Assembly (NCBI RefSeq): GCF_030463535.1
Contig: NC_132901.1
Span: forward strand, 3,739,640-3,803,639
Reading direction: 5' to 3'
Source of the DNA: Salminus brasiliensis
Lineage: Eukaryota > Chordata > Actinopteri > Characiformes > Bryconidae
Length of the DNA stretch: 64,000 nucleotides
The position numbers were made by a program, and so were the translations under genes. Position 1 is the stretch's first letter. Every line of letters begins with the position of its first letter. Positions 1-64,000 of the stretch are shown here, piece by piece. The notes beneath the pieces were generated by a model, which saw nothing but the letters and a program-made list of their open reading frames with translations, was not told where the DNA came from and did no database searches.

Positions 1-619
1 TTCGGCTGTGGGGACTGGGTCAAGAAAGGCGGATACCGTGAATTTGCAGGTAAACTGGAGTCTAGGGACGAAATTTACACGTTACCTTAGAAACATGAGT
101 CTGAGAGGACCCATGTGTCCCTCTCATGGCCACTTCACTGGAAAGTTAACGAGCTGGACGCTCTTCTTCTTTTATGTTCTCAGGCACCTTTCAGTACTGC
201 CCCCCAGAGTTCTTTCTAAAGGGGAGGTACCACGCCAGTCCTGCGACAGTCTGGTCTCTAGGAGTCCTACTGTTCAGGCTGGTTAGTGGACACCTTCCCT
301 TTACAGACGAGCAGGAAATCGTGGAGGGGCTTCTGAGCTTCAAGGACCACCTATCCAATGGTGAGATATCTGAGAGCCTCCTCGAGAGACTCTTAGAAGT
401 TCAGGACGACGTGTTCTGCACGGTCGTCTTTCTGAAATGTACTTAAGTATCTCTCTCACATCCAATCCAATCCCGTCCTTCTGCACAGAATGCTGCAATC
501 TGATTAGGAGGTGTCTGCAGCGCAACCCATCCCAGAGGCCCAAAGTGAAGCAGATCCTGAAGCACGACTGGTTCCAGTGCAGCGTTCCTACCGAGGATCA
601 GGTTAGCCAGGGAAAATGA
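1..619 (+). CDS. PIM-like Ser/Thr kinase, copy 1 (3' part; cut by window start)
   Basis: This is the C-terminal part of a PIM-family kinase gene. Visible coding exons are 1-49 (end of exon 5, starting inside the DFG motif and ending ...EFA), 184-360 (exon 6, GTFQYCPPEF through the ATVWSLG segment to LSN) and 489-619 (exon 7, ECCNLIRRC, NPSQRP, HDWF, then QVSQGK and TGA). Introns are bounded by gtaaac/ctcag and gtgaga/cacag. The N-lobe and catalytic loop lie outside the window, so intactness cannot be judged. Apart from one intronic base (479 T, against C at 11119), I noticed no difference from copy 2 from here to the start of the minisatellite. Exon 7 contains a possible internal donor after 601 (CAG|gttagc), which would join to an exon at 791-860. 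Confidence 0.88.
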
Positions 620-790
620 GAATGACTGCTTAGAGAAGAAACAGTAGAAGCTAAAATATCTAGAGTTGTGATCGAGGAGGCGAAGGAAAGAAAAACTACT
701 AGAAATGAAGAGGAAGATCTGAATTCTCAGCATTTCTGATCCTTAGACGTGCTTCCGTCTCCAATGCGTATCTCCTGGGTTGTGTTTCAG

Positions 791-860
791 GTCCTGAGAA
801 CAGAGCAGCCTTCAGAGCAGAGGAGACAAACCGTCTGAAGTTGGCCCGTTTCATCAACAG
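791..860 (+). other. Candidate alternative exon 8 of kinase copy 1
   Basis: This 70-nt segment has a clean acceptor (tgtgtttcag) and donor (aacag|gtaaaa). Joined in phase 0 to the exon 7 donor after 601, it replaces VSQGK with VLRTEQPSEQRRQTV and a TGA. The stop lies 22 nt before the exon end. Transcript evidence is lacking. Confidence 0.5.
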
Positions 861-2659: not shown

Positions 2660-2675
2660 GATTTTTAGAGCACTG

Positions 2676-4417: not shown

Positions 4418-6221
4418 CCTCATTAACACACACCTCAAACAGTAACACTAACCCCACCAGAAACCTCATTAACACACACCTCAAACAGTAACACTAACCC
4501 CACCAGAAACCTCATTAACACACCTGAAACATTAACACTAACCCATCAGAAACATCATTAACACACACCTCAAACAGTAACACTAAGCCCATCAGAAACC
4601 TCATTAACACACACCTCAAACAGTAAGACTAACCCCATGAGAAACTTCATTAAAACACACCTCAAACAGTAAGACTAACCCCATGAGAAACTTCATTAAA
4701 ACACACCTCAAACAGTAACACTAACCCCATTAGAAACCTTAACACACCTCAAACAGTAACACTAACATCAGAAGAAACCTCATTAACACACACCTCAAAC
4801 AGTAAGACTAACCTCATTAGAAACCGCTAAGAGTAACACTAAGCCCATCAGAAACTTCATTAACACACACCTCAAACAATAACACTAACCCCATTATAAA
4901 CCTCATTACGACACAGCTCAAACAGTAACACTAACCCCATTAGAAACCTCATTAACACACACCTCAGAAATTCCTACTAACCCCATTAGAAACCTCATTA
5001 ACACACACCTCAAACAGTAACACTTACCCCATTAGAAACCTTATTAACACACCTCAAACAGTAACACTAACACCAGAAGAAACCTCATTAACACACACCT
5101 CAAACAGTAAGACTAACCTCATTAGAAACCGCAAAGAGTAACACTAAGCCCATCAGAAACTTCATTAACACACACCTCAAACAATAACACTAACCCCATT
5201 ATAAACCTCATTACCATGCACCTCAAACAGTAACAATAACCCCATTAGAAACTTCATTAACACACACCCCAAACAGTAACACTAACACCAGTAGAAACTT
5301 CATGAACACACACCTCAAACATTAATACTAACCCCATCAGAAACCCCATTAACACACATCTTAAACAGTAAAACTAACCCCATTAAAAACTGCATTAACA
5401 TACACATCAAACAGGAATACTAACCCCATTAGAAACCTCATTAACACACACCACAAACAGTAACAATAACCCCATTAGAAACCTCATTAACACACACCTC
5501 AAACAGTAACACTAACCCAATCAGAAACCTCATTAACACATGCCTCAAACAGTAACACTAACCCCATTAGAAACCTCATTAACACATGCCTCAAACAGTA
5601 ACACTAACCCCATTAGAAACCTCATTAACACACACCTTAAACAGTAACACTAACCCCATTATAAACTTCATTAACACACACCTCAAACGGTAAAACTAAC
5701 CCCATTAGAAACCTTATTAACACACACCACTAACAGTAACACTAACCCCAGTAGAAACCTCATCAACACACACCTCAAACAGTAACACTAACCCCATCAG
5801 AAATCTCATTAACACACACCCCAAACAGTAACACCTCATTAACACACACCTTAAACAGTAACACTAACCCCATGAGAAACTTCATTAACACACACCTCAA
5901 ACAGTAACACTAACCCTATAAGAAACCTCATTAACACACACCTCAAACAGTAACACTAACCCCATATGAAACCTCATTAACACACACCTCAAACAGTAAC
6001 ACTAACCCCATAAGAAACCTCATTAACACACACATCAAACATTAACACTCACCCCATTAGAAACCTTATTAACACACACCTCAAACAGTAATACTAACCC
6101 CATAAGAAACCTCATTAACACACACCTCAAACAGTAACACTAACCCCATTAGAAACCTCATTAACACACACCTCAAACAGTAACACTAACCCCATTAGAA
6201 ACCTCATTAACACACACCTCA
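4418..6221. repeat. 46-bp minisatellite array 1
   Basis: There are about 39 imperfect copies of a 46-bp unit made of CCTCATTAACACACACCTCA, AACAGTAACACTAACCCC and ATTAGAAA. The consensus + strand has about 20 A, 16 C, 8 T and only 2 G. Units of 36-50 bp occur through small indels. TAA words occur in every unit, so no frame is open. Confidence 0.97.
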
Positions 6222-8640: not shown

Positions 8641-8831
8641 GTGAACAGAGGACACGCGGACACTGTGCGGAACTCGCCATGGCAACCGAGCAGCTCTTTC
8701 TATTGATGACATCACAATGGTGGAGCTCCCTGTCACAGTCTTCCGAGCTCGGAACTCCTTCACTTCTTCTCAGGACACTGAGGAAGAGACAAGCTGTCCG
8801 ACTTGGTCCTGACGTTTGTCTTAGCGATTGA
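8641..8831 (+). other. Candidate 5' exon with 50-codon ORF (before gene 2)
   Basis: After the acceptor ending at 8640, an ATG in a strong Kozak context (CGCCATGG, 8679) opens a 50-codon frame beginning MATEQLFLLMTSQWW and ending at TGA 8829-8831. The frame persists before genes 3, 4 and 5 with only substitutions. I recognise no domain. It could be a 5' UTR upstream ORF, a first coding exon using an internal donor I could not identify, or chance. Confidence 0.3.
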
Positions 8832-9380
8832 CTTAGCAGCAGTCGTAGCGGTTTACTTAGCGACAGTCTTAGTGAACGTCTTAGTGGTAGTCTTAGCGAC
8901 AGTCTTAGTGATTGTCTTAGTGACAGTTTTAGTCTCACTGACTGGCTTAGAGATTTAGTGACTACCGTAGTTATTGGCTTAGTCACAGCCTTAGCTATTA
9001 GCTTAGTCATAGTCTTAGAGACTAAACTGGTGATTGTCCTAGCGACAGTCTCACTGATTGGCTTAGCGACTTAGTGACTGGTGTAGTTTTTGGCTTAGTC
9101 ACAGTTTTAGCTACTACCTTAATCATAGTCTTAGAGACTAACTTAGTGATTGTCTTAGAGACAGTCTTAGGGATTGTCCTAGCCACTGGCTTAGTGACAG
9201 TTTTAGCTGTTGGCTTAGCATTAGACTTAGCCACTGGCCTAGCTTATAGTATTAGTGACTAGCTTAGCAATAGCGTTAGAGACAGTCTTAGCTATTGGCT
9301 TAGTCACATTCTTAGCTGTTGGCTTAGCGACAGTATTAGCAACTGGCTTAGCCACAGTGTTAGTTATTGTCTTAGCTGTA
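8818..9380. repeat. 12-bp minisatellite (CTTAGYGACAGT-like)
   Basis: Imperfect 12-bp units based on CTTAGTGACAGT and CTTAGTGATTGT run for about 560 bp. Because 12 is divisible by 3, stop-free frames arise on both strands (Lys/Thr/Val-rich on minus, Val/Leu-rich on plus). These frames shift and break between copies and are not annotated as genes. Confidence 0.85.
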
Positions 9381-9661: not shown

Positions 9662-11259
9662 ATGTTGGGCGGCGAAAGAGGAAAAGAAAGGAGGAGGGCA
9701 GCCAGAGGTTCTCACAGAGAACAACCGAGGTTGCCAGAAGTAAAAGCCCGGTAAGGAAGAGAAGGAAGGGAGAAGTTAGCCAGCCCAAGATAATGACCAG
9801 AAGACAGCGGAGCGACATCAAGCCAGGTTAGCTCATTGGCCAGACCACTGCACACAAGGAAGTGGTCCAGTATTTAGTGCAATAGCCTGTGCTGCTATTA
9901 GATAGACTCCTGAGAGATGATGGGGAGAGAGCTGATGTTCAGCTTCAACACTGTTTGTTTTCCACAGACACTTTTGCCTCTCTCTACGTCACTGGAGAGA
10001 AACTGGGAGAAGGAGGCTTCGGCGCCGTCTTCGAGGGAACCCGGGTTTCCGACGGCCTACAGGTTCTTAAATCACCCCTCCAGAACTTCATTATCTCATC
10101 TGTTCCCTTTTCAGTCCTCATAACATTCACACCTCGTCTCCTCTCTGTCTGCAGGTGGCCGTTAAATTCGTCACCAAGCGGGACGACGATGAATACGTCC
10201 AATGCGTAAGTGCACCTGGAAGCCAGGTTTTACTGTCCGATCACACATCACGCTCCCAGACTTCACTGCACTCACCTTTCCACCAACCTTGCCCTGTGTT
10301 CCTGTTCTTCCAGCCTGTTCAGCTCAAGACCGTGCCCATGGAGGTGGCTCTAATGAACAGGATGAGCCAGCCACCCACCAGCAATGTGGTGAAGCTCATC
10401 GAGTGGTTCGATGAGCCTGAGCGCTACATCCTGGTCCTGGAGCGCCCAGATCCTTGCCAGGACTTGCAGTCCTTGATCGACCAGTGGGGAGGTTCGGTCA
10501 GTGAAGAGATAGCCAGGGACATCATGCTCCAGACGGTGGAGGCAGCAAGAACGTGCCAGAAGCGAGGTGTCCTGCACAGAGACATCAAACTGGAGAACTT
10601 CCTGATCAACACAGACACCTCAGAGATCAAGCTGATCGACTTCGGCTGTGGGGACTGGGTCAAGAAAGGCGGATACCGTGAATTTGCAGGTAAACTGGAG
10701 TCTAGGGACGAAATTTACACGTTACCTTAGAAACATGAGTCTGAGAGGACCCATGTGTCCCTCTCATGGCCACTTCACTGGAAAGTTAACGAGCTGGACG
10801 CTCTTCTTCTTTTATGTTCTCAGGCACCTTTCAGTACTGCCCCCCAGAGTTCTTTCTAAAGGGGAGGTACCACGCCAGTCCTGCGACAGTCTGGTCTCTA
10901 GGAGTCCTACTGTTCAGGCTGGTTAGTGGACACCTTCCCTTTACAGACGAGCAGGAAATCGTGGAGGGGCTTCTGAGCTTCAAGGACCACCTATCCAATG
11001 GTGAGATATCTGAGAGCCTCCTCGAGAGACTCTTAGAAGTTCAGGACGACGTGTTCTGCACGGTCGTCTTTCTGAAATGTACTTAAGTATCTCTCTCACA
11101 TCCAATCCAATCCCGTCCCTCTGCACAGAATGCTGCAATCTGATTAGGAGGTGTCTGCAGCGCAACCCATCCCAGAGGCCCAAAGTGAAGCAGATCCTGA
11201 AGCACGACTGGTTCCAGTGCAGCGTTCCTACCGAGGATCAGGTTAGCCAGGGAAAATGA
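9662..11259 (+). CDS. PIM-like Ser/Thr protein kinase, copy 2
   Basis: This is a PIM-family protein kinase, expected to transfer ATP gamma-phosphate to Ser/Thr in cytosolic or nuclear proteins. Exons: 9662-9826, 9968-10062, 10155-10205, 10314-10689, 10824-11000 and 11129-11259 (phases 1, 0, 0, 1, 1 agree). The 5' coding exon is not located. Exon 2 is open upstream without an in-frame ATG until 9793, so residues are numbered from that Met (287 aa; about 43 more basic residues, RRKRKRKEEG..RKRRKGE, if an upstream exon is used). Motifs: glycine loop LGEGGFGAVFEG 24-35, VAVK Lys47, alpha-C Glu70, PIM hinge LERPDP 102-107, HRDIKLEN 148-155, DFGCG 169-173, PPE 192-194, ATVWSLG 206-212 (Asp absent, as in PIM), QRP Arg261. 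PIM kinases are usually constitutively active without activation-loop phosphorylation. An alternative C-terminus uses the donor after 11241. The exon 3 donor (gttctt) is weak. Confidence 0.93.
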
Positions 11260-11430
11260 GAATGACTGCTTAGAGAAGAAACAGTAGAAGCTAAAATATC
11301 TAGAGTTGTGATCGAGGAGGCGAAGGAAAGAAAAACTACTAGAAATGAAGAGGAAGATCTGAATTCTCAGCATTTCTGATCCTTAGACGTGCTTCCGTCT
11401 CCAATGCGTATCTCCTGGGTTGTGTTTCAG

Positions 11431-11500
11431 GTCCTGAGAACAGAGCAGCCTTCAGAGCAGAGGAGACAAACCGTCTGAAGTTGGCCCGTTTCATCAACAG
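11431..11500 (+). other. Candidate alternative exon 8 of kinase copy 2
   Basis: Splicing from 11241 to 11431 gives a 297-residue form ending VLRTEQPSEQRRQTV (stop 11476-11478). A PIM-like tail after HDWF is typically 20-30 residues, so both forms are plausible. The stop is within 50 nt of the exon 8 donor, so it would not be expected to trigger nonsense-mediated decay. Confidence 0.5.
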
Positions 11501-11673
11501 GTAAAAATGGGTATAAGGAGCTCCAGCGTTGAGCTGTGGAGCTGTGGAGCTGTGCTTTATGGAATGATGGTGCTCCATCCAATAAGTCTGGGATGAGTTG
11601 GGGATGAGGTGAGTTGGTGATAATCCTGAGCTGACTAACGCTCTCGTCACTGAATGCAATCAAATTCTCACAG

Positions 11674-11825
11674 CAGTGCTCCTCCAAATTTTAGTAGAAA
11701 GGTGTCTTCCCTGGCAGTAGAGAGAGTTACCCCAACAAAAGCAGGATCAACTCTTTTAAATGCCGTTAATTTTGGAAGAAGCAGTGAATGAACAGGCGTC
11801 CCAATACTTTTGTCAATATAGTGTA
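11674..11825. mobile_element. Tc1/mariner-like transposon end, copy 2
   Basis: Same fossil and same position relative to the gene as at 1034-1185, with the terminal motif at 11794-11825. It therefore inserted before the units duplicated. Confidence 0.6.
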
Positions 11826-12840
11826 GAGTCCCTAAAGTCTTTACAGGAAGCCCCAGCAGTGTGTGTAGCTGGGAATGGGTACACTTGACGTGCTTTGGCT
11901 TGCTTAAGGAAATTCCCATGTAAGGCTGGGAACTGTTTACCCTCGTCTTAATGACGACGACTCCGTCTGATAAATGATGAGAGTGAACGGCGGATTCTGG
12001 AAGGTGGGAAAGTTCACCACTGGTTTAATCTGCTGCTGTCTTAGAGGCCTGACACCAGTGTTTGTGGAAATGGGGGTCAGCAGAGCTCCGAGAGGGGGGC
12101 GGGACAGCGGGGCAGTTCACCCTTACAGTGAAGATGACCTCATTCCCTTTAAGCGCTAAGCGCTCCCCACTTCTCGTAGAGCTTAGAAGCCTTTTTTTGG
12201 ACAGAAGCACCAAACAGTGTATGAACCAAAAGCCTGTGAAGCGGTTAGCCTTTAGCTCACTGCTGCGCTGAGTAGAAGCTGCTGCTGCTGCTGTGTTGAT
12301 TGTGTGTGTTTCAGGATTCCTCCTTTCCTCCATCCTTGGTTGCCTGGTTCCTCCAGAACTCATCCCTAGGTCATGCCATCTGCCAACTCCCGCCCCTTCT
12401 AGCCTCGACTCTGCCCCATCACTTTTTCCTCACTCCATGCCTTCACCTTCCCCTCTGGCCACACCTCGCACCGCTGCTCGAACCTTTGCACGTCTTCTGC
12501 CCTTAATCTGCGGACCCTCCTAGGCGTAGAGCTTGTTCCCCGAGCTCCGCTGCTCCCTCTCGCTGCAGTACCTCAGTTCCCTCGACCGTAGTCCATGCGC
12601 CCCTCCACTGTCAGTGCCTGGAGTAGAAGCCTCTGGACTGGCTCCTCCATTCTGCACGACTCCCCAGGTGCGTCGTCTTGCTGACCCGTCGCAGGATCGG
12701 CTGACCCTCCCTCGGCTTTCTCAGCTTTCCGTTATTCTGCTGTCTTCTAGCAGCCGGTCTCCACATTACGTCCGTCGTTAGTAAGAAGTACGTGTAGAAG
12801 TAAGGAAGGACTAAGAAGTACTTTTCCACAATCCGGCGCC

Positions 12841-14749: not shown

Positions 14750-15057
14750 GACAAGTCACGTCTGACCTCACGTCTGATCTTCACTATTTTCTTTCCTCAA
14801 AATGACCTGTGCTGCATAAAGCAGGGTTGATTTACTATAATTTACCTCAGTAATCATATTTTTAAAAGGTTTAAAGATGTCTGAGGTGGCGTCAATCTTC
14901 TGTTGATGTTTTGTCAAAATTTCAGGGTTGATTCAGTATGAATTTAGGGAGCAAAATTGACGATGAATAAACATAAGATTGGATTATTGATTCAATGAAT
15001 GACGTTAACGGCGACAGTTTAACGTTGACTTAATATCTATTCAATGACTGATGAATG
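14750..15057. repeat. Spacer module, unit 2 (single copy)
   Basis: One type-1 module, ending at the array boundary TGATGAATG. Confidence 0.6.
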
Positions 15058-16633
15058 CCTCATTAACACACACCTGAAACATTAACACTAACCCATCAGA
15101 AACATCATTAACACACACCTCAAACAGTAACACTAAGCCCATCAGAAACCTCATTAACACACACCTCAAACAGTAAGACTAACCCCATGAGAAACTTCAT
15201 TAAAACACACCTCAAACAGTAACACTAACCCCATTAGAAACCTTAACACACCTCAAACAGTAACACTAACATCAGAAGAAACCTCATTAACACACACCTC
15301 AAACAGTAAGACTAACCTCATTAGAAACCGCTAAGAGTAACACTAAGCCCATCAGAAACTTCATTAACACACACCTCAAACAGTAACACTAACCCCATTA
15401 GAAACCTCATTAACACACACCTCAGAAATTCCTACTAACCCCATTAGAAACCTCATTAACACACACCTCAAACAGTAACACTTACCCCATTAGAAACCTT
15501 ATTAACACACCTCAAACAGTAACACTAACACCAGAAGAAACCTCATTAACACACACCTCAAACAGTAAGACTAACCTCATTAGAAACCGCAAAGAGTAAC
15601 ACTAAGCCCATCAGAAACTTCATTAACACACACCTCAAACAATAACACTAACCCCATTATAAACCTCATTACCATGCACCTCAAACAGTAACAATAACCC
15701 CATTAGAAACTTCATTAACACACACCCCAAACAGTAACACTAACACCAGTAGAAACTTCATGAACACACACCTCAAACATTAATACTAACCCCATCAGAA
15801 ACCCCATTAACACACATCTTAAACAGTAAAACTAACCCCATTAAAAACTGCATTAACATACACATCAAACAGGAATACTAACCCCATTAGAAACCTCATT
15901 AACACACACCACAAACAGTAACAATAACCCCATTAGAAACCTCATTAACACACACCTCAAACAGTAACACTAACCCAATCAGAAACCTCATTAACACATG
16001 CCTCAAACAGTAACACTAACCCCATTAGAAACCTCATTAACACATGCCTCAAACAGTAACACTAACCCCATTAGAAACCTCATTAACACACACCTTAAAC
16101 AGTAACACTAACCCCATTATAAACTTCATTAACACACACCTCAAACGGTAAAACTAACCCCTTAAGAAACCTTATTAACACACACCACTAACAGTAACAC
16201 TAACCCCAGTAGAAACCTCATCAACACACACCTCAAACAGTAACACTAACCCCATCAGAAACCTCATTAACACACACCCCAAACAGTAACACCTCATTAA
16301 CACACACCTTAAACAGTAACACTAACCCCATGAGAAACTTCATTAACACACACCTCAAACAGTAACACTAACCCTATAAGAAACCTCATTAACACACACC
16401 TCAAACAGTAACACTAACCCCATATGAAACCTCATTAACACACACCTCAAACAGTAACACTAACCCCATAAGAAACCTCATTAACACACACATCAAACAT
16501 TAACACTCACCCCATTAGAAACCTCATTAACACACACCTCAAACAGTAACACTAACCCCATTAGAAACCTCATTAACACACACCTCAAACAGTAACACTA
16601 ACCCCATTAGAAACCTCATTAACACACACCTCA
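15058..16633. repeat. 46-bp minisatellite array 2
   Basis: About 34 units. The order of variant units follows array 1 closely, but several are missing (for example the first two units of array 1), so arrays 1 and 2 are recent relatives that differ by unit deletions. Confidence 0.97.
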
Positions 16634-19052: not shown

Positions 19053-19243
19053 GTGAACAGAGGACACGCGGACACTGGACGGAACTCGCCATGGCAACCG
19101 AGCAGCTCTTTCTATTGATGACATCACAATGGTGGAGCTCCCTGTCACAGCCTTCCGAGCTCGGAACTCCTTCACTTCTTCTCAGGACACTGAGGAAGAG
19201 ACAAGCTGTCCGACTTGGTCCTGACGTTTGTCTTAGCGATTGA
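19053..19243 (+). other. Candidate 5' exon with 50-codon ORF (before gene 3)
   Basis: ATG at 19091, stop TGA at 19241-19243. The frame is preserved, with a Ser-to-Pro change in the SQSSELG segment. Confidence 0.3.
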
Positions 19244-21671: not shown

Positions 21672-21842
21672 GAACGACTGCTTAGAGAAGAAACAGTAGA
21701 AGCTAAAATATCTAGAGTTGTGATCGAGGAGGCGAAGGAAAGAAAAACTACTAGAAATGAAGAGGAAGATCTGAATTCTCAGCATTTCTGATCCTTAGAC
21801 GTGCTTCCGTCTCCAATGCGTATCTCCTGGGTTGTGTTTCAG

Positions 21843-21912
21843 GTCCTGAGAACAGAGCAGCCTTCAGAGCAGAGGAGACAAACCGTCTGAAGTTGGCCCG
21901 TTTCATCAACAG
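21843..21912 (+). other. Candidate alternative exon 8 of kinase copy 3
   Basis: Acceptor and donor are both preserved; joins to the exon 7 donor after 21653. Confidence 0.5.
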
Positions 21913-35280: not shown

Positions 35281-35451
35281 GAACGACTGCTTAGAGAAGA
35301 AACAGTAGAAGCTAAAATATCTAGAGTTGTGATCGAGGAGGCGAAGGAAAGAAAAACTACTAGAAATGAAGAGGAAGATCTGAATTCTCAGCATTTCTGA
35401 TCCTTAGACGTGCTTCCGTCTCCAATGCGTATCTCCTGGGTTGTGTTTCAG

Positions 35452-35521
35452 GTCCTGAGAACAGAGCAGCCTTCAGAGCAGAGGAGACAAACCGTCTGAA
35501 GTTGGCCCGTTTCATCAACAG
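35452..35521 (+). other. Candidate alternative exon 8 of kinase copy 4
   Basis: Splice sites and the VLRTEQPSEQRRQTV frame are preserved; the donor in exon 7 lies after 35262. Confidence 0.5.
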
Positions 35522-42000: not shown

Positions 42001-45000
42001 CCCCATTAGAAACCTCATTAACACACACCTCAAACAGTAACACTAACCCCATTACAAACCTCATTAAAACACACCTCAAACATTAACACTAACTCCATTA
42101 AAAAAACCTTATTAACACACCTCAAACATTAACACTAACCCCATTAGAAACCTCATTAACACACCTCAAACAGTAACACTAACCCCATTGGAAACCTTAT
42201 TAACACACCTCAAACAGTAACACTAACCCCATTAGAAACCTCATTACCACACACCTCAAACAGTAACACTAACCCCATTAAAAACTGCATTAACATATAC
42301 GTCAAACAGTAACACTAACCCCATTAGAAACCTCATTAACACACACCTCAAACAGTAACACTAACCCCATCAGAAACCTCATTAACAAACCTCCAACATT
42401 AACACTAACCCATGAGAAACATCATTAATACACACCTCAAACAGTAACACTAACCCCATCAGAAACCTCATTAACACATACCTCAAACAGTAACACTAAC
42501 CACATCAGAAACCTCATTAACACACCTCAAACAGTAACACTAACCCCATCAGAAACCTCATTAACACATACCTCAAACAGTAACACTAACCACATCAGAA
42601 ACCTCATTAACACACCTCAAACAGTAACACTAACCCTATCAGAAACCTCATTAACAAACCTCAAACATTAACACTAACCCATGAGAAACATCATTAACAC
42701 ACACCTCAAACATTAACACTAACCCCATCAGAAACCTCATTAACACACCTCAAACATTACCACTAAGCCCATTATAAACCTCATTAACACACACCTCAAA
42801 CAGTAACACTAACCCCATTAGAAACTTCATTAACACACACCGCAAACAGTAACAATAACCCCATTAGAAACTTCATTAACACACACCTCAAACATTAACA
42901 CTCACCCCATTAGAAACCTCATTAACACACATCTTAAACAGTAACACTAATCCCATTAGAAACTTCATTAACACACACCTCAAACATTAACACTCACCCC
43001 ATTAGAAACCTCATTAACACACACCTCAAACAGTAAAACTAACCCCATTAAAAACTGCATTAACATACACATCAAACAGGAATACTAACCCCATTAGAAA
43101 CCTCATTAACACACACCACAAACAGTAACACTAACCCCAGTAGAAACCTCATCAACACACACCTCAAACAGTAACACTAACCCCATCAGAAACCTCATTA
43201 ACACACACCTCAAACAGTAAGAATATCCCCATGAGAAACTTCATTAACACACACCTCAAACAGTAACACTAACCCCATTAGAAACCTTATTAACACACCT
43301 TAAACAGTAACACTAACCCCATTAGATACCTCATTAACACACACATCAAACATTAACACTCACCCCATAAGAAACCTCATTAACACACACCTCAAACAGT
43401 AACACTAACCCCATCAGAAACCTCATTAACACACACCTCAAACAGTAACACCCCATAAGAAACCTCATTAACACACACCTCAAACAGTAACACTAACCCC
43501 ATAAGAAACCTCATTAACACACACCTCAAACAGTAACACTAACCCCATTAGTAACAACATTAACACACACCTCAAACAGTAAGACTAACCCCATTAGAAA
43601 CCTTATTAACAAACCTTAAACAGTAACACTAACCCCATTAGAAACCTCATTAACACACACCTCAAACAGTAACACTAACCCCATTAGAAACCTCATTAAC
43701 ACACACCTCAAACAGTAACACTAACCCCATTAGAAACCTCATTAACACACACCTCAAACAGTAACACTAACCCCATATGAAACCTCATTAACACATACCT
43801 CAAACAGTAACACTAACCCCATTAGAAACCTCATTAACACACCTCAAACAGTAAAACTAACCCCATATGAAACCTCATTAACACACACCTCAAACAGTAA
43901 CACTAACCCTATAAGAAACCTCATTAACACACACCTCAAACAGTAACACTAACCCCATATGAAACCTCATTAACACATACCTCAATCAGTAACACTAACC
44001 CCATTAGAAACCTCATTAACACACCTCAAACAGTAAAACTAACCCCATATGAAACCTCATTAACACATATCTCAAACAGTAACACTAACCCCATTATAAA
44101 CCTCATTAACACACCTCAAACAGTAACACTAACCCCATTAGAAACCTCATTAACACACCTCAAACAGTAACACTAACCCCATATGGAACCTCATTAACAC
44201 ACACCTCAAACAGTAAAACTAACCCCATAAGAAACCTCATTAAAACACACCTCAGAAATTCCTACTACTCCCATTAGAAACCTCATTACCACACACCTCA
44301 AACAGTAACACTAACCCCATGAGAAACTTCATTGCCACACACCTCAAACAGTAACACTAACCCCATTAGAAACCTTTATAACACACCTCAAACAGTAACA
44401 CTAAGCCCATTAGAAACCTCATTAACACACCTCAAACAGTAACACTAACCCCATTAGATACCGCATTAACACACACCTCAGAAATTCCTACTAATCCCAT
44501 TAGAAACCTCATTAACACACACCTCAAACAGTAACACTAACCCCATTAGAAACCTCATTAACACACACCTCAAACAATAACACTAACCCCATTAGATACC
44601 GCATTAACACACACCTCAGAAATTCCTACTTATCCCATTAGAAACCTCATTAACACACACCTCAAACAGTAACACTAACCCCATTAGAAACCTCATTAAC
44701 ACACACCTCAAACATTAACACTAACTGCATTAAAAAAACCTTATTAACACACCTCAAACATTAACACTAACCCCATCAGAAACCTCATTAACACACCTCA
44801 AACATTAACACTAACTCCATTAAAAAACTTATTAACACACCTCAAGCATTAACACTAACCCCATCAGAAACCTCATTAGCACACCTCAAACAGTAACACT
44901 AACCCCATTAGAAACCTCATTAACACACACCGCAAACAGTAACACTAACCCCATTAGAAACCTCATTAACACACACCTCAAACATTAACACTAACTCCAT

Positions 45001-48000
45001 TGAAAAAACCTTATTAACACACCTCAAACATTAACACTAACCCCAGTAGAAACCTCATTAACACCACAAACAGTAACACTAACCCCATTAGAAACCTCAT
45101 TAACACACACCTCAAACAATAACACTAACCCCATTAGATACCGCATTAACACACCTCAGAAATTCCTACTAATCCCATTAGAAACCTCATTAACACACAC
45201 CTCAAACAGTAACACTAACCCCATTAGAAACCTCATTAACACACACCTCAAACATTAACACTAACTCCATTAAAAAAACCTTATTAACACACCTCAAACA
45301 TTAACACTAACCCCATCAGAAACCTCATTAACACACCTCAAACATTAACACTAACCCCATTAGAAACCTCATTAACACACCTCAAACAGTAACACTAACC
45401 CCATATGAAACCTCATTAACACATACCTCAAACAGTAACACTAACCCCATTAGAAACCTCATTAACACACCTTAAACAGTAAAACTAACCCCATTAGAAA
45501 CCTCATTAACACACACCTCAAACAGTAACACTAACCCCATTAGAAACCTCATTAACACACACCTCAAACATTAACACTAACTCCATTAAAAAAACCTTAT
45601 TAACACACCTCAAACATTAACACTAACCCCATCAGAAACCTCATTAACACACCTCAAACATTAACACTAACTCCATTAAAAAACTTATTAACACACCTCA
45701 AGCATTAACACTAACCCCATCAGAAACCTCATTAGCACACCTCAAACAGTAACACTAACCCCGTTAGAAACCTCATTAACACACACCTCAAACAGTAACA
45801 CTAACCCCATTGGAAACCTCATTAACACACACCTCAAACAGTAACACTAACCCCATTAGAAACCATAATTAACACACACCGTTGAAATTCCTACTAATTC
45901 AATTAGAAACCTCATTAACACACACCTAAAACAGTAACACTTACACCATCAGAAACCTCATTAACACACCTCAAACATTAACACTAACCCCATCAGAAAC
46001 CTCATTAACACACCTCAAACATTAACACTAACCCCATCAGAAGCCTCATTAACACACCTCAAACATTAACACTAACCCCATTAGAAACCTTATTAACACA
46101 CCTCAAACAGTAACACTAACCCCAGTAGAAACTTCATTAGCACACACCTCAAACAGTAACACTAACCCCATCAGAAACCTCATTAACACACCTCAAACAT
46201 TAACACTAACCGCATCAGAAACCTCATTACCACACACCGCAAACAGTAATACTAACCCCATTAGAAACCTCATTAATACACACATCAAGCAGTAGCACTA
46301 ACACCATCAGAAACCTCATTAACACATACCTCAAACAGTAAAACTAACCCCATTAAAAACTGCATTAACATATACGTCAAACAGGAATACTAACCCCATT
46401 AGAAACCTCATTAACACACACCTTAAACAGTAACACTAATCCCGTTAGAAGCCTCATTAACACACCTCAAACAGTAACACTAACACCATCAGAAACCTCA
46501 TTAACACATACCTCAAACAGTAAAACTAACCCCATTAAAAACTGCATTAACATATACGTCAAACAGGAATACTAACCCCATTAGAAACCTTATTAATACA
46601 CACCACAAATAGTAACACTAACCCCAGTAGAAATCTGATTAACACACACTTCAAACATTAACACTAACCCTAGTAGAAATCTGATTAACAAACACCTCAA
46701 ACAGTAACACTAATCCCATTAGATACCTCATTAACACACACCTCAAACATTAACACTAACCCCAGTAGAAACCTCATTTACACACACCTCAAACAGTAAC
46801 ACTAACCCCATTGGAAACCTTATTAACACACCTCAAACGGTAACACTAACCCCATTAGAAACCTCATTAACACACACCTCAAACATTAACACTAACCCCA
46901 GTAGAAACCTCATTTACACACACCTCAAACAGTAACACTAACCCCATTGGAAACCTTATTAACACACCTCAAACAGTAACACTAACCCCATTAGAAACCT
47001 CATTACCACACACGTCAAACAGTAACACTAACCCCATTAAAAACTGCATTAACATATACGTCAAACAGTAACACTAACCCCATTAGAAACCTCATTAACA
47101 CACACCTCAAACAGTAACACTAACCCCATCAGAAACCTCATTAACAAACCTCCAACATTAACACTAACCCATGAGAAACATCATTAATACACACCTCAAA
47201 CAGTAACACTAACCCCATCAGAAACCTCATTAACACATACCTCAAACAGTAACACTAACCACATCAGAAACCTCATTAACACACCTCAAACAGTAACACT
47301 AACCCCATCAGAAACCTCATTAACACATACCTCAAACAGTAACACTAACCACATCAGAAACCTCATTAACACACCTCAAACAGTAACACTAACCCTATCA
47401 GAAACCTCATTAACAAACCTCAAACATTAACACTAACCCATGAGAAACATCATTAACACACACCTCAAACAGTAACACTAACCCCATTAGAAACCTCATT
47501 AACACACACCTCAAACATTAACACTAACTCCATTAAAAAAACCTTATTAACACACCTCAAACATTAACACTAAACCCATCAGAAACCTCATTAACACACA
47601 CCTCAAACAGTAACACTAACCCCATTAGAAACTTCATTAACACACACCGCAAACAGTAACAATAACCCCATTAGAAACTTCATTAACACACACCTCAAAC
47701 ATTAACACTCACCCCATTAGAAACCTCATTAACACACATCTTAAACAGTAACACTAATCCCATTAGAAACTTCATTAACACACACCTCAAACATTAACAC
47801 TCACCCCATTAGAAACCTCATTAACACACACCTCAAACAGTAAAACTAACCCCATTAAAAACTGCATTAACATACACATCAAACAGGAATACTAACCCCA
47901 TTAGAAACCTCATTGACACACACCACAAACAGTAACACTAACCCCAGTAGAAACCTCATCAACACACACCTCAAACAGTAACACTAACCCCATCAGAAAC

Positions 48001-48517
48001 CTCATTAACACACACCTCAAACAGTAAGAATATCCCCATGAGAAACTTCATTAACACACACCTCAAACAGTAACACTAACCCCATTAGAAACCTTATTAA
48101 CACACCTTAAACAGTAACACTAACCCCATTAGATACCTCATTAACACACACATCAAACATTAACACTCACCCCATAAGAAACCTCATTAACACACACCTC
48201 AAACAGTAACACTAACCCCATCAGAAACCTCATTAACACACACCTCAAACAGTAACACCCCATAAGAAACCTCATTAACACACACCTCAAACAGTAACAC
48301 TAACCCCATAAGAAACCTCATTAACACACACCTCAAACAGTAACACTAACCCCATTAGTAACAACATTAACACACACCTCAAACAGTAAGACTAACCCCA
48401 TTAGAAACCTTATTAACAAACCTTAAACAGTAACACTAACCCCATTAGAAACCTCATTAACACACACCTCAAACAGTAACACTAACCCCATTAGAAACCT
48501 CATTAACACACACCTCA
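39079..48517. repeat. 46-bp minisatellite array 4 (longest complete array)
   Basis: About 205 units. Nested duplications are visible. CGCTAACCCC is repeated 811 bp apart (39241 and 40052). ATTAAAAACTGC with CAAACAGGAATAC recurs at 40689, 43047 and 47854 (2,358 and 4,807 bp apart). CTCCAACATT recurs at 42391 and 47150 (4,759 bp). Units with ATTAAAAAAACC occur mostly in this array. Confidence 0.97.
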
Positions 48518-51731: not shown

Positions 51732-53329
51732 ATGTTGGGCGACGAAAGAGGAAAAGAAAGGAGGAGGGCAGCCAGAGGTTCTCACAGAGAACAACCGAGG
51801 TTGCCAGAAGTAAAAGCCCGGTAAGGAAGAGAAGGAAGGGAGAAGTTAGCCAGCCCAAGATAATGACCAGAAGACAGCGGAGCGACATCAAGCCAGGTTA
51901 GCTCATTGGCCAGACCACTGCACACAAGGAAGTGGTCCAGTATTTAGTGCAATAGCCTGTGCTGCTATTAGATAGACTCCTGAGAGATGATGGGGAGAGA
52001 GCTGATGTTCAGCTTCAACACTGTTTGTTTTCCACAGACACTTTTGCCTCTCTCTACGTCACTGGAGAGAAACTGGGAGAAGGAGGCTTCGGCGCCGTCT
52101 TCGAGGGAACCCGGGTTTCCGACGGCCTACAGGTTCTTAAATCACCCCTCCAGAACTTCATTATCTCATCTGTTCCCTTTTCAGTCCTCATAACATTCAC
52201 ACCTCGTCTCCTCTCTGTCTGCAGGTGGCCGTTAAATTCGTCACCAAGCGGGACGACGATGAATACGTCCAATGCGTAAGTGCACCTGGAAGCCAGGTTT
52301 TACTGTCCGATCACACATCACGCTCCCAGACTTCACTGCACTCACCTTTCCACCAACCTTGCCCTGCGTTTCTGTTCTTCCAGCCTGTTCAGCTCAGGAC
52401 CGTGCCCATGGAGGTGGCTCTAATGAACAGGATGAGCCAGCCACCCACCAGCAATGTGGTGAAGCTCATCGAGTGGTTCGACGAGCCTGAGCGCTACATC
52501 CTGGTCCTGGAGCGCCCAGATCCTTGCCAGGACTTGCAGTCCTTGATCGACCAGTGGGGAGGTTCGGTCAGTGAAGAGATAGCCAGGGACATCATGCTCC
52601 AGACGGTGGAGGCAGCAAGAACATGCCAGAAGCGAGGTGTCCTGCACAGAGACATCAAACTGGAGAACTTCCTGATCAACACAGACACCTCAGAGATCAA
52701 GCTGATCGACTTCGGCTGTGGGGACTGGGTCAAGAAAGGCGGATACCGTGAATTTGCAGGTAAACTGGAGTCTAGGGACGAAATTTACACGTTACCTTAG
52801 AAACATGAGTCTGAGAGGACCCATGTGTCCCTCTCATGGCCACTTCACTGGAAAGTTAACGAGCTGGACGCTCTTCTTCTTTTATGTTCTCAGGCACCTT
52901 TCAGTACTGCCCCCCAGAGTTCTTTCTAAAGGGGAGGTACCACGCCAGTCCTGCGACAGTCTGGTCTCTAGGAGTCCTACTGTTCAGGCTGGTTAGTGGA
53001 CACCTTCCCTTTACAGACGAGCAGGAAATCGTGGAGGGGCTTCTGAGCTTCAAGGACCACCTATCCAATGGTGAGATATCTGAGAGCCTCCTCGAGAGAC
53101 TCTTAGAAGTTCAGGACGACGTGTTCTGCACGGTCGTCTTTCTGAAATGTACTTAAGTATCTCTCTCACATCCAATCCAATCCCGTCCCTCTGCACAGAA
53201 TGCTGCAATCTGATTAGGAGGTGTCTGCAGCGCAACCCATCCCAGAGGCCCAAAGTGAAGCAGATCCTGAAGCACGACTGGTTCCAGTGCAGCGTTCCTA
53301 CCGAGGATCAGGTTAGCCATGGAAAATGA
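51732..53329 (+). CDS. PIM-like Ser/Thr protein kinase, copy 5
   Basis: Exons 51732-51896, 52038-52132, 52225-52275, 52384-52759, 52894-53070 and 53199-53329; first in-frame ATG at 51863. Intact frame. One protein change relative to copy 2 was noticed in the catalytic domain, Lys65 to Arg (PVQLRTVPMEV), just before the alpha-C Glu70. Gln142 is kept and the C-terminus ends VSHGK. The GCGACG in exon 2 (GCGGCG in the others) is silent for the basic N-terminal segment. This is the last gene in the window; its downstream array continues beyond position 64000. Confidence 0.93.
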
Positions 53330-53500
53330 GAATGACTGCTTAGAGAAAAAACAGTAGAAGCTAAAATATCTAGAGTTGTGATCGAGGAGGCGAAGGAAAG
53401 AAAAACTACTAGAAATGAAGAGGAAGATCTGAATTCTCAGCATTTCTGATCCTTAGACGTGCTTCCGTCTCCAATGCGTATCTCCTGGGTTGTGTTTCAG

Positions 53501-53570
53501 GTCCTGAGAACAGAGCAGCCTTCAGAGCAGAGGAGACAAACCGTCTGAAGTTGGCCCGTTTCATCAACAG
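53501..53570 (+). other. Candidate alternative exon 8 of kinase copy 5
   Basis: Splice sites and frame preserved; partner donor in exon 7 after 53311. Confidence 0.5.
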
Positions 53571-56812: not shown

Positions 56813-57853
56813 GACAAGTTTCTTTAAGTCTCTTTTCACTATACTGTTTTCCCTAAAATGACCCTTGCTGACCATAAAGCAGGGCTGATTTACCGTATTT
56901 TACCTCAGTAATCAGATTTTTAAAAGGTTTAAAGATGACTGAAGTGCAGTTGATTCAGTATGAATTCAGGGTGCAAAAGTGACACTGAATCATCATCAGA
57001 TTAGATAATTGATTCAGTGAATGATTCAATTAATTGATTCAATTAATTAATGTCGACAGTTTAGCATTGACTCAACATCTGTTTAATGACTGATTGCTAT
57101 CGGAGTTGAACTTGGTGGAGGAAGTGGCTGATTGGAGAGGTAAGACTTGGCGGTAGTGCTAGATGACTAGTCTGACCTCACGTCTGACCTCACGTCTGAT
57201 CTTCACTATTTTCTTTCCTCAAAATGACCTGTGCTGCATAAAGCAGGGTTGATTTACTATAATTTACCTCAGTAATCAGATTTTTAAAAGGTTTAAAGAT
57301 GACTGAAGTGCTGTTGATTCAGTATGAATTCAGGGTGCAAAAGTGACACTGAATCATCATCAGATTAGATAATTGATTCAGTGAATGATTCAATTAATTG
57401 ATTCAATGAATTAACGTCGACAGTTTAGCATTGACTCAACATCTGTTTAATGACTGATTGCTATCGGAGTAGAACTTGGTGGAGGAAGTGACTGATTGGA
57501 GAGGTAAGACTTGGCGGTAGTGCTAGATGACTAGTCTGACCTCACGTCTGACCTCACGTCTGGTCTCACGTCTGATCTTCACTATTTTCTTTCCTCAAAA
57601 TGACCCGTGCTGCATAAAGCAGTGTTGATTTACTATAATTTACCAGTAATCATATTTTTAAAAGGTTTAAAGATGTCTGAGGTGGCGTCAATCTTCTGTT
57701 GATGTTTTGTCAAAATTTCAGGGTTGATTCAGTATGAATTTAGGGAGCAAAATTGACGATGAATAAACATAAGATTGGATTATTGATTCAATGAATGACG
57801 TTAACGGCGAAACTTTAACGTTGACTTAACATCTATTCAATGACTGATGAATG
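56813..57853. repeat. Spacer module, unit 5 (three tandem copies, one hybrid)
   Basis: A type-2 module starts at 56813. A hybrid follows (from about 57180) that begins like type 1 (GACCTGTGCTGCATAAAGCA) and switches to type 2 after TTTAAAGATG (GACTGAAGTGCTG). A type-1 module completes the series (from about 57545) and leads into the array. AAAATGACC anchors lie at about 57222 and 57597. Confidence 0.7.
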
Positions 57854-60800
57854 CCTCATTAACACACACCTCAAACAGTAATACTAACCCCATCAGAAAC
57901 CTCATTAACACACACCTCAAACATTAACACTAACCCCATCAGAAACCTCATTAACACACACCTCAAACAGTAACACTAACCCCATCAGAAACCTCATTAA
58001 CACACACCTCAAACAGTAACACTAACCCCATTAGAAACCTCATTAACACACACCTCAAACAGTAACACTAACCCCATTAGAAACCGCAAACAGTAACACT
58101 AAGCCCATCAGAAACTTCATTAACACACACCTCAAACAGTAACACTAACCCCATTAGAAACATTATTAACACACCTCAAACAGTAACACTAACATCAGAA
58201 GAAACCTCATTAACACACACCTCAAACAGTAAGACTAACCTCATTAGAAACCGCTAAGAGTAACACTAAGCCCATCAGAAACTTCATTAACACACACCTC
58301 AAACAATAACACTAACCCCATTAGAAACCTCATTAACACACCTCAAACAGTAACACTAACCCCATTAGATACCTCATTAACACACACCTCAAACATTAAC
58401 ACTAACCCCATTAGAAACTACATTAACATAAACCTCAAACTGTAACACTAACCCCATTATAAACCTCATTACGACACACCTCAAACAGTAACACTAACCC
58501 CATTAGAAACCTCATTAACACACACCTCAGAAATTCCTACTAACCCCATGAGAAACCTCATTAACACACACCTCAAACAGTAACACTTACCCCATTAGAA
58601 ACCTTATTAACACACCTCAAACAGTAACACTAACACCAGAAGAAACCTCATTAACACACACCTCAAACAGTAAGACTAACCCCATCAGAAACCTTATTAA
58701 CACACACCTCAAACAGTAAGACTAACCTCATTAGAAACCTCATTAACACACACCTCAAACAGTAACACTAACCCAATCAGAAACCTCATTAACACACACC
58801 TCAAACAATAACACTAACCCCATTATAAACCTCATTAACACACACCTCAAACAGTAACACTAACCCCATTATAAACCTCATTACGACACACCTCAAACAG
58901 TAACACGAACCCCAGTCGAAATCTGATTAACACACACCTCAAACATTAACACTAACCCCAGTAGAAACCTCATTAACACACACCTCAAACATTAACACTA
59001 ACCCCAGTAGAAACCTCATTAACACACACCTGAGAAATTCCTACTAACCCCATTATATACCTCATTACCACGCACCGAAAACAGTAACACTAACCCTATT
59101 AGAAACCTTATTAACACACCTCAAACAGTAACACTAACACCAGAAGAAACCTCATTAACACACACCTCAAACAGTAAGACTAACCTCATTAGAAACCGCA
59201 AAGAGTAACACTAAGCCCATCAGAAACTTCATTAACACACACCTCAAACAATAACACTAACACCAGTAGAAACCTCATTACCACGCACCGCAAACAGTAA
59301 TACTAACCCCATTAGAAACCTCATTAACACACCTCAAACAATAACACTAACCCCATTATAAACCTCATTGCCATGCACCTCAAACAGTAACAATAACCCC
59401 ATTAGAAACCTCATTAACACACACCTCAAACAGTAAAACTAACCTCATTAAAAACTGCATTAACACACACCCCAAACAGTAACACTAACACCAGTAGAAA
59501 CTTCATTAACACACACCTCAAACAGTAACACTAACCCAATCAGAAACCTCATTAACACACCTCAAACAGTAACACTAACCCCATTATAAACCTCATTAAC
59601 ACACCCCCCAAACAGTAACACTAACACCAGTAGAAACTTCATTAACACACACCTCAAACAGTAACACTAACCCCATCAGAAACCTCATTAACACACACCT
59701 CAAACAGTAAGAATATCCCCATGAGAAACTTCATTAACACACACCTCAAACAGTAACACTAACCCCATTAGAAACCTCATTAACACACACCTCAAACAGT
59801 AACACTAACCCCATTAGAAACCTCATTACCACGCACCGCAAACAGTAATACTAACCCCATGAGAAACTTCATTAACACACACCTCAAACGGTAAAACTAA
59901 CCCCATTAGAAACCTCATTAACACACATCTTAAACAGTAACACTAATCCCATTAGAAACTTCATTAACACACACCTCAAACATTAACACCCCATTAGAAA
60001 CCTCATTAACACACACCTCAAACAGTAAAACTAACCCCATTAGATACCTCATTAACACACACCTCAAACAGTAAGAATATCCCCATGAGAAACTTCATTA
60101 ACACACACCTCAAACAGTAACACTAACCCCATTAGAAACCTTATTAACACACCTTAAACAGTAACACTAACCCCATTAGATACCTCATTAACACACACAT
60201 CAAACATTAACACTCACCCCATTAGAAACCTCATTAACACACACCTCAAACTGTAAGACTAACCCCATAAGAAACCTCATTAACACACACCTCAAACAGT
60301 AACACTAACCCCATTAGAAACCTCATTAACACACCTGAAACATTAACACTAACCCATCAGAAACATCATTAACACACACCTCAAACAGTAACACTAACCC
60401 CATTAGAAACCGCAAACAGTAACACTAAGCCCATCAGAAACTTCATTAACACACACCTCAAACAGTAAGACTAACCCCATGAGAAACTTCATTAAAACAC
60501 ACCTCAAACAGTAACACTAACCCCATTAGAAACCTTATTAACACACACCTCAAACAGTAACACTAACATCAGAAAAAAACTCATTAACACACACCTCAAA
60601 CAGTAAGACTAACCACATTAGAAACCGCAAAGAGTAACACTAAGCCCATCAGAAACTTCATTAACACACACCTCAAACAATAACACTAACCCCATTATAA
60701 ACCTCATTACCACGCACCGCAAACAGTAATACTAACCCCATTAGAAACCTCATTAACACACCTCAAACAATAACACTAACCCCATTATCAACCTCATTAC

Positions 60801-63800
60801 CATGCACCTCAAACAGTAACAATAACCCCATTAGAAACCTCATTAACACACACCCCAAACAGTAACACTAACACCAGTAGAAACTTCATGAACACACACC
60901 TCAAACAGTAACACTAACCCCATCAGAAACCCCATTAACACACATCTTAAACAGTAACACTAATCCCATGAGAAACTTCATTAACACACACCTTAAACAG
61001 TAAAACTAACCCCATTAAAAACTGCATTAACATACACATCAAACAGTAACAATAACCCCATTAGAAACCTCATTAACACACACCTCAAACAGTAACACTA
61101 ACCCAATCAGAAACCTCATTAACACATGCCTCAAACAGTAACACTAACCCCATTAGAAACCTCATTAACACACACCTTAAACAGTAACACTAACCCCATT
61201 AGAAACCTCATTAACACACACCTCAAACAGTAACACTAACCCCATTAGAAACCTCATTAACACACACCTCAAACAGTAAGAATATCCCCATGAGAAACTT
61301 CATTAACACACACCTCAAACGGTAAAACTAACCCCATTAGAAACCTCATTAACACACATCTTAAACAGTAACACTAATCCCATTAGAAACTTCATTAACA
61401 CACACCTCAAACATTAACACTCACCCCATTAGAAACCTCATTAACACATACCTTAAACAGTAAAACTAACCCCATTAAAAACTGCATTAACATACACATC
61501 AAACAGGAATACTAACCCCATTAGAAACCTCATTAACACACACCACAAACAGTAACACTAACCCCAGTAGAAACCTCATCAACACACACCTCAAACAGTA
61601 ACACTAACCCAATCAGAAACCTCATTAACACACCTCAAACAGTAACACTAACCCCATCAGAAACCTTATTAACACACACCTCAAACAGTAAGACTAACCT
61701 CATTAGAAACCGCTAAGAGTAACACTAAGCCTATCAGAAACTTCATTAACACACACCTCAAACAATAACACTAACCCCATTAGAAACCTCATTAACACAC
61801 CTCAAACAGTAACACTAACCCCATTAGATACCTCATTAACACACACCTCAAACATTAACACTAACCCCATTAGAAACTACATTAACATAAACCTCAAACT
61901 GTAACACTAACCCCATTATAAACCTCATTACGACACACCTCAAACAGTAACACTAACCCCATTAGAAACCTCATTAACACACACCTCAGAAATTCCTACT
62001 AACCCCATGAGAAACCTCATTAACACACACCTCAAACAGTAACACTTACCCCATTAGAAACCTTATTAACACACCTCAAACAGTAACACTAACACCAGAA
62101 GAAACCTCATTAACACACACCTCAAACAGTAAGACTAACCTCATTATAAACCGCAAAGAGTAACACTAAGCCCATTAGAAACCTCATTAACACACACCTC
62201 AAACAATAACACTAACCCCATTATAAACCTCATTAACACACACCTCAAACAGTAACACTAACCCAATCAGAAACCTCATTAACACACACCTCAAACAATA
62301 ACACTAACCCCATTATAAACCTCATTAACACACACCTCAAACAGTAACACTAACCCAATCAGAAACCTCATTAACACACACCTCAAACAGTAACACTAAC
62401 CCCATTATAAACCTCATTACGACACACCTCAAACAGTAACACTAACCCCAGTCGAAATCTGATTAACACACACCTCAAACATTAACACTAACCCCAGTAG
62501 AAACCTCATTAACACACACCTGAGAAATTCCTACTAACCCCATTATATACCTCATTACCACGCACCGAAAACAGTAACACTAACCCTATTAGAAACCTTA
62601 TTAACACACCTCAAACAGTAACACTAACACCAGAAGAAACCTCATTAACACACACCTCAAACAGTAAGACTAACCTCATTAGAAACCGCAAAGAGTAACA
62701 CTAAGCCCATCAGAAACTTCATTAACACACACCGCAAACAGTAATACTAACCCCATTAGAAACCTCATTAACACACCTCAAACAATAACACTAACCCCAT
62801 TATAAACCTCATTGCCATGCACCTCAAACAGTAACAATAACCCCATTAGAAACCTCATTAACACACACCTCAAACAGTAAAACTAACCTCATTAAAAACT
62901 GCATTAACACACACCCCAAACAGTAACACTAACACCAGTAGAAACTTCATTAACACACACCTCAAACAGTAACACTAACCCAATCAGAAACCTCATTAAC
63001 ACACCTCAAACAGTAACACTAACCCCATTATAAACCTCATTAACACACCCCCCAAACAGTAACACTAACACCAGTAGAAACTTCATTAACACACACCTCA
63101 AACAGTAACACTAACCCCATCAGAAACCTCATTAACACACACCTCAAACAGTAAGAATATCCCCATGAGAAACTTCATTAACACACACCGCAAACAGTAA
63201 TACTAACCCCATGAGAAACTTCATTAACACACACCTCAAACGGTAAAACTAACCCCATTAGAAACCTCATTAACACACATCTTAAACAGTAACACTAATC
63301 CCATTAGAAACTTCATTAACACACACCTCAAACATTAACACTCACCCCATTAGAAACCTCATTAACACACACCTCAAACAGTAAAACTAACCCCATTAGA
63401 TACCTCATTAACACACACCTCAAACAGTAAGAATATCCCCATGAGAAACTTCATTAACACACACCTCAAACAGTAACACTAACCCCATTAGAAACCTTAT
63501 TAACACACCTTAAACAGTAACACTAACCCCATTAGATACCTCATTAACACACACATCAAACATTAACACTCACCCCATTAGAAACCTCATTAACACACAC
63601 CTCAAACTGTAAGACTAACCCCATAAGAAACCTCATTAACACACACCTCAAACAGTAACACTAACCCCATTAGAAACCTCATTAACACACCTGAAACATT
63701 AACACTAACCCATCAGAAACATCATTAACACACACCTCAAACAGTAACACTAACCCCATTAGAAACCGCAAACAGTAACACTAAGCCCATCAGAAACTTC

Positions 63801-64000
63801 ATTAACACACACCTCAAACAGTAACACTAACCCCATTAGAAACCTTATTAACACACACCTCAAACAGTAACACTAACATCAGAAAAAAACTCATTAACAC
63901 ACACCTCAAACAGTAAGACTAACCTCATTAGAAACCGCAAAGAGTAACAATAACCCCATTAGAAACCTCATTAACACACACCCCAAACAGTAACACTAAC
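57854..64000. repeat. 46-bp minisatellite array 5 (continues past window end)
   Basis: About 134 units to the window edge. A block of about 3.5 kb is repeated inside: GTCGAAATCTG occurs at 58915 and 62451 (3,536 bp apart) with the same order of variant units around it. Confidence 0.97.

Follow-up and report, generated by a model that had tools for sequence, protein, structure and literature searches.

The 64,000-nucleotide stretch of Salminus brasiliensis DNA analysed here (the window; contig NC_132901.1, below C28, C28:3739640-3803639) covers the middle part of a tandem array of 17 near-identical PIM-like kinase genes, each of them accompanied by a minisatellite with a 46-bp repeat. We examined 264 kb, the window plus 100 kb on each side, and searched the genome (1.066 Gb in 103 contigs) for matches to the kinase and to the repeat motif; coordinates are those of the window, with negative numbers lying to its left. 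The whole cluster comprises 17 kinase genes on the same strand and 17 46-bp arrays over a span of about 205 kb (204.8 kb), and its catalytic exon recurs in 17 copies, all on the + strand, from C28:3673805 to 3867888 with 98-100% residue identity. A first-pass annotation had described five same-strand genes: the common strand is real, but the window holds four complete genes and a fifth (U06) cut by its left edge, together with five of the arrays. Searches with the exons (tblastn) placed kinase exons at matching relative positions on the + strand in all five window units:

1..838, + strand: PIM-like kinase gene U06, 3' part only (placed by tblastn of exons; exon 4 is cut by the window edge, the glycine-loop exon lies at -670, and the offset to U07 is -10640)
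4418..6221, + strand: 46-bp minisatellite A07, upstream of gene U07
9663..11478, + strand: PIM-like kinase gene U07 (PIM-1 the best solved relative; Pkinase domain), with exons at about 9663-9826 (basic N-terminal), 9968-10062, 10155-10205, 10314-10689, 10824-11000, 11129-11241 and 11431-11478 (stop)
15058..16633, + strand: 46-bp minisatellite A08, upstream of gene U08
20075..21890, + strand: PIM-like kinase gene U08 (U07 + 10412; first exon placed by offset)
25840..30677, + strand: 46-bp minisatellite A09, upstream of gene U09
33684..35499, + strand: PIM-like kinase gene U09 (U07 + 24021; first exon placed by offset)
39079..48517, + strand: 46-bp minisatellite A10, 9.4 kb, upstream of gene U10
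51733..53548, + strand: PIM-like kinase gene U10 (U07 + 42070; first exon placed by offset)
57854..64000, + strand: 46-bp minisatellite A11, which runs off the window to 65043; its gene, U11, lies outside the window

PIM-like kinase genes are strongly expanded in some teleosts. By their nearest relatives and catalytic motifs, the cluster genes are predicted members of the PIM kinase family: the closest solved structures are PIM-1 (E = 3.5e-72) and PIM-2 (1.5e-64), one or the other of which fills the first 42 of the 60 matches listed, and the next kinase is MARK3 at 1.3e-34. The Pkinase domain is matched at 5.5e-57, and five kinase motifs, including the glycine loop, VAVK, HRD and DFG, occur in 17/17 copies. 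They resemble PIM-1 and PIM-2 in sequence and in kinase motifs, but differ from them in being tandem and multicopy and in carrying a basic N-terminal exon. The first coding exon was not found: there is no ATG between the frame of the basic N-terminal exon and the preceding stop. From the glycine-loop exon to the stop codon, however, all 17 copies keep an open frame, every donor is GT and every acceptor AG, and the copies encode five distinct proteins in which 3 of 286 residues vary (positions 54, 131 and 186), so that the identical exon plans and very few residue changes first reported for the window extend to the whole cluster. Among 15 distinct units (U15 and U16 omitted as copies), 18 of 287 codons, stop included, are variable, with 15 synonymous and three replacement changes (K/R, Q/H, L/V), which over 194 synonymous and 667 replacement sites gives a replacement/synonymous ratio of about 0.06. 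Coding exons show a diversity of 0.58%, as against 1.49% for introns and 1.42% for flanks, and the replacement-to-synonymous divergence (Ka/Ks) from two of six related genes on C11 is 0.24-0.25. These figures suggest that all 17 copies are working genes maintained by purifying selection; any part that their dosage plays in PIM-type survival or immune signalling would be a guess from family membership. Among the titles and abstract openings listed in searches of the literature on PIM-like expansion in fish, no such cluster is named.

The accompanying repeats run head to tail with a 46-bp period, and the 17 arrays vary in length from 86 to 9,413 bp, as expected of a minisatellite, and together make up 21% of the cluster. 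Their strand, which is also that of the genes, is poor in G (5.1% over the 43,798 bases of the 17 arrays). A search of the genome with a 40-base core of the motif (at most three mismatches, both strands, with a reversed-pattern control) gave 622 forward matches, 0 reverse and 0 for the control, with about 100 places listed, and a direct scan of the 264 kb gave 622 forward and 0 reverse. Because the two counts are equal, the repeat is private to the cluster; a chance origin of the matches is excluded, and we reject the possibility that the arrays are a dispersed repeat, since 622/622 genome matches by count lie inside the cluster. The random scatter around the genome that the first-pass annotation had named as fatal to its proposal is thus not what we find. 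Arrays lie 3.2-5.7 kb upstream of the glycine-loop exon in 17/17 units. Two of the 17 have shrunk to 86 bp, about two repeats, in U12 and its recent copy U15, and hence amount to one case; since the genes of both units are intact, we reject a full array as a requirement for gene integrity. The longest array, A10, contains a 936-bp exact tract that recurs inside the array at a 2,358-bp shift, and has grown at least once by a block and not by a single repeat.

Within each unit the order is array and then gene. Inside the window an array does lie downstream of every gene, as had been described, but over the whole cluster the arrays lie upstream of the genes and none follows the last. At the left edge, the first array starts about 95-130 bp past the stop codon of a neighbouring gene that carries a neurotransmitter-gated channel domain (Neur_chan_memb) and that we take to be a nicotinic acetylcholine receptor subunit gene. 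At the right edge, the last unit continues through the usual pre-array flank, beyond which the sequence is different and contains no 46-bp array, so the duplicated segment does not have such an array on both edges. Inside the cluster, the passage from flank to array is always the same:

14756..15057: pre-array flank, ending at the shared junction ...CTGATGAATG / CCTCATTAAC
4418, 25840, 39079 (one substitution) and 57854: the same flank/array junction at its other positions in the window

This one junction is common to 16/16 internal array starts, with small substitutions in two, and is absent at both cluster edges, the first array being without it; three of the 16 are copies from the last duplication. 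It bears out the earlier proposal that gene plus array is one amplifying unit. Because all 16 internal starts share a single junction, one founding duplication at the array edge has probably been propagated, and in the simplest history the right side of a single unit would have been joined once to its own left array edge and copied since. If the present cluster edges are ancestral, there would have been only one array at founding, in which case exchange between one array and another could not have founded the cluster.

The bodies of the units (8.4-12.6 kb) are 98.2-100% identical over aligned columns in all pairs of the 17. Linkage (r2) among U01-U14 is 0.32 for sites less than 50 bp apart, 0.18 for those 50-100 bp apart and 0.08-0.11 at greater distances, having come down to about 0.10 by 100-200 bp, and the 161 informative sites in these units require at least 71 recombination intervals, compared with 90-105 in 100 random orders; read in this way, the bodies appear as mosaics at a scale of about 100 bp, as would result from short-tract gene conversion. 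Among the matches listed, the next in similarity are a group of six on C11 near 36.4 Mb, with 75-78% identity, and many on C5, mostly with 64-70% (genome-wide kinase match counts are lower bounds), so that identities of 98-100% within the cluster against 75-78% to C11, with the mosaic structure, amount to concerted evolution. Larger exchanges can be seen as well: U15-U17 repeat U12-U14 in tandem at an offset of 29,575 bp, with four mismatches over 70179-100082, and U14 is chimeric, resembling U17 in its left part and U11 in its right part, with the switch falling inside a 329-bp interval of the body:

70179-70507 / 99754-100082, outside the window: crossover interval of the 29,575-bp duplication
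11771..12099: counterpart of this interval in U07, between the gene and the next array

The duplication and its chimeric unit are a visible product of unequal crossing over, short of an assembly error, which we weigh below. U06 and U07 share a further tract, from -1400 to 4435 (5,836 bp with three mismatches), and past the array U07 and U08 have long exact runs in common as far as 8271, at another offset, their arrays differing by 228 bp in length; less surely, we take this pattern for a one-unit duplication enclosing an array, whose crossover would lie near 8272-9240. The neighbours U03 (about -37064 to -33779) and U04 (-23653 to -20369) each contain an additional segment of about 3.3 kb at the same position, which marks an older one-unit duplication.

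The bodies also share much longer stretches than the arrays do. Exact shared tracts of at least 200 bp occur in the bodies of 91/91 unit pairs and in the arrays of 15/91, the median longest exact tract is 545 bp for the body versus 103 bp for the array (the array has the longer one in 3/91 pairs), and among 37 recent shared tracts of at least 800 bp, 33 are without array DNA. Ends of these tracts fall in arrays in 4 of 74 cases, whereas arrays make up 23% of the scanned DNA, although tracts recur across pairs and are not independent.

Our best explanation, to which we give a probability of about 0.72, is a young, constrained tandem array that expanded by body-to-body exchange and in which the minisatellite is a passenger and not the motor. 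Judging from the junctions, a single block of 46-bp array, flank, PIM-like kinase gene and flank would first have stood beside the acetylcholine-receptor-like gene, and a duplication with little or no homology would have joined its right flank to its left array edge. Once there were two copies, the bodies would have recombined by unequal homologous exchange and by short-tract gene conversion, a process seen in part, until there were 17 homogenised copies; the three-unit (29,575 bp) unequal crossover with its chimeric unit is the visible instance. Each array would have changed length independently, within the range that we observe, while being carried along, and purifying selection, as the codon counts indicate, would have kept the protein near-constant.

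Several points weigh against this explanation. The lower bound of 71 recombination intervals assumes a single mutation per site, and an error of assembly could account for the near-perfect 29.6-kb duplication. Of the 91 unit pairs, 13 include an 86-bp array, which is unable to share 200 bp, and the fast change of arrays hides old exchanges and biases the count of tract ends against them. The 5.8-kb tract common to U06 and U07 stops 18 bp inside an array; an exact tract of 991 bp common to A04 and A05 takes in 814 bp of identical array but no more than some 60 and 115 bp of body; and array blocks recur in distant units (A04 versus a stretch of A10, 98.4%). Arrays do take part in some exchange, and exchange between them is probably by conversion. 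Finally, linkage across arrays (r2 0.092, compared with 0.083 under shuffled pairing, P = 0.21; distant body sites behave alike) is a weak test with 14 units only.

The alternative that survives best retains the bodies as the substrate of later exchange but makes the array edge a fragile site, where a break founded the duplication. We regard this as a tentative possibility, well short of an even chance: the sole founding junction lies exactly at an array edge at 16/16 internal starts, but it records a single founding event, shows no clear homology by eye and would fit ordinary end joining too, and with 1.3-2.1 arrays per 10 kb in the flanks a random breakpoint would often fall near one. These densities refer to arrays of at least 400 bp with a period of at least 15: the left flank has six in 28.6 kb (2.1 per 10 kb), the right flank four in 30.5 kb (1.3), the cluster 22 in 204.8 kb (1.07, with both the 46-bp arrays and a second minisatellite, listed below, counted) and a related C11 cluster six in 66 kb (0.91), the flanks being small and adjoining the cluster and hence a local control. 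Within 30 kb around other kinase matches (L001-L008), such an array occurs at 4/8 loci. In this region it would be exceptional for a 10-kb unit to lack a minisatellite, and for the array edge a role in the single founding break is possible.

The first-pass annotation had gone further and proposed that the arrays may provide the homology for mispairing and crossing over, the minisatellite thereby driving amplification. We judge this unlikely, and this part of its claim is not supported: although arrays occur in every unit in a single orientation and the unit boundary lies at the array, the bodies offer far better homology, and the best-resolved crossover lies within a body. The recent A04/A05 tract, which covers the array with short flanks, and the blocks that distant units have in common (A04/A10, 98.4% over 814 bp) are what the proposal would predict, but tract ends are scarce in arrays, on a count biased against them, and two of the four found there are inside A10, while one is the end of a scan piece. 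The array is down to two repeats in U12 and its copy U15, and the cluster edges suggest a single array at the founding step.

An assembly artefact, that is, false duplication or a mis-resolved repeat inflating the copy number, especially at the 29.6-kb duplication, is likewise improbable. A stretch of 29.9 kb with only four mismatches is what such an error could look like, but pairwise differences among the remaining 14 units amount to 0.6-1.8%, several units carry insertions absent from others, array lengths differ, and the chimeric unit is shaped as expected of a real crossover; an artefact at this duplication would cost three units.

Other kinase clusters bear on what the repeat beside each gene means. 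The related cluster at C11:36421394-36476577 (L029-L035) has six PIM-like genes, five on one strand and one inverted, with a 54-bp array about 2.1 kb upstream of 5/6 genes and, for the inverted sixth, a 41-bp array downstream. A second kinase cluster, at C11:32894255-32950573 (L001-L005), has a 21-bp array 0.5-0.65 kb upstream of 5/5 listed genes and one more array near 32926600 without a listed gene; genome-wide, the 21-bp repeat is matched 68 times forward and 0 times in reverse, always at C11:32.9 Mb. This cluster serves as a control from another kinase family, as we rejected it as PIM-like on the one gene tested (L001), which is TSSK6-like (9e-85). The 46-bp and 54-bp units have no homology clearly above shuffles (16 versus a mean of 16.5; other strand, 10 versus 8.9), and neither do the 46-bp and 21-bp units (11 versus 11.5; 12 versus 8.9, a value reached by 8% of shuffles). 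That each cluster, in two gene families, has its own different repeat fits passengers that were picked up with the unit. Nor is a private minisatellite special, because the right flank holds, without a kinase gene, an equally local one: a 5.3-kb array of a 27-bp repeat at 136175-141508, with 192 copies according to Tandem Repeats Finder (TRF), has 113 forward and 0 reverse genome matches, all listed ones at the right flank. The C11 54-bp unit is a counter-example to privacy, with 344 forward and 162 reverse matches spread over many contigs.

The same comparison could be taken to mean that, in this minisatellite-rich genome, tandem gene duplications have repeatedly started at array edges, the 46-bp cluster, the C11:36.4 Mb 54-bp cluster and the C11:32.9 Mb TSSK6-like 21-bp cluster each having been founded by a break at an array edge, with body homology acting afterwards; we consider this generalisation rather doubtful. 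That the array is kept for a selected function on the gene, as an enhancer, insulator or dosage control, is very improbable, as its presence in 17/17 units at 3.2-5.7 kb from the glycine-loop exon would suit such a role, but two units with two-repeat arrays have intact genes, and in the related cluster at C11:36.4 Mb the repeat differs in both sequence and position.

The cluster is of a kind already known, a tandem gene array in concerted evolution, and has partial counterparts elsewhere. In the Sp185/333 cluster of the purple sea urchin, near-identical tandem genes lie in duplicated segments bounded by short tandem repeats, which its authors propose to promote duplication and conversion (PMC3091723); there, microsatellites flank each gene on both sides, whereas here there is one 46-bp minisatellite per unit and the mapped exchange lies in the body. 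Yeast CUP1 arrays are described as arising from a single copy by non-homologous joining with at most 3 bp of junction homology (PMC4232551), a proposed founding step that resembles the join we infer for this cluster, but the CUP1 unit is smaller (from about 1.2 kb) and no minisatellite is mentioned in it in the passages compared here (PMC4232551). Daphnia ribosomal DNA, with a tandem unit whose spacer is internally repetitive (PMC3036644), is like the cluster in its internal repeats and concerted evolution and differs in being ribosomal and not protein-coding. Zebrafish NLR genes illustrate lineage-specific local inflation in fish (PMC5041008) in another gene family, the words 'pim' and 'kinase' being absent from the main text of that report (PMC5041008). 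Set beside these, the present locus is a clean natural case in which a founding step, an expansion step and a passenger repeat are separable from one assembly, by one founding junction, by a chimeric unit with a 329-bp crossover and by arrays whose divergence outpaces that of the surrounding units. It is also a warning that a repeat beside every copy need not be the cause of amplification.

Kinase matches also form further runs on C1, C2, C26 and C7, with a spacing of about 4-24 kb, mostly 6-12 kb, and several kinase families seem to have been amplified in place in this genome. Within the cluster, U02 and U06 carry other insertions, of about 1 and 1.6 kb respectively, and two minus-strand open frames of U07, of 118 and 134 amino acids, have no Pfam match. 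A short dispersed element at 11640-11823 overlaps the start of the mapped crossover interval, and copies of this type that are 70-78% identical occur in both flanks in both orientations. The remaining repeats in the window are as follows:

8820..9376: second minisatellite, repetitive at 12/24/116-bp levels, immediately upstream of U07's N-terminal exon
19232-19788, 32899-33397 and 50949-51446: counterparts of the second minisatellite
56848..57684: tandem repeat with a 364-bp unit (2.3 copies), within the flank that precedes array A11

The second minisatellite is present in all four units whose upstream part falls inside the window, and the U06/U07/U08 crossover may lie at or beside its copy at 8820-9376.

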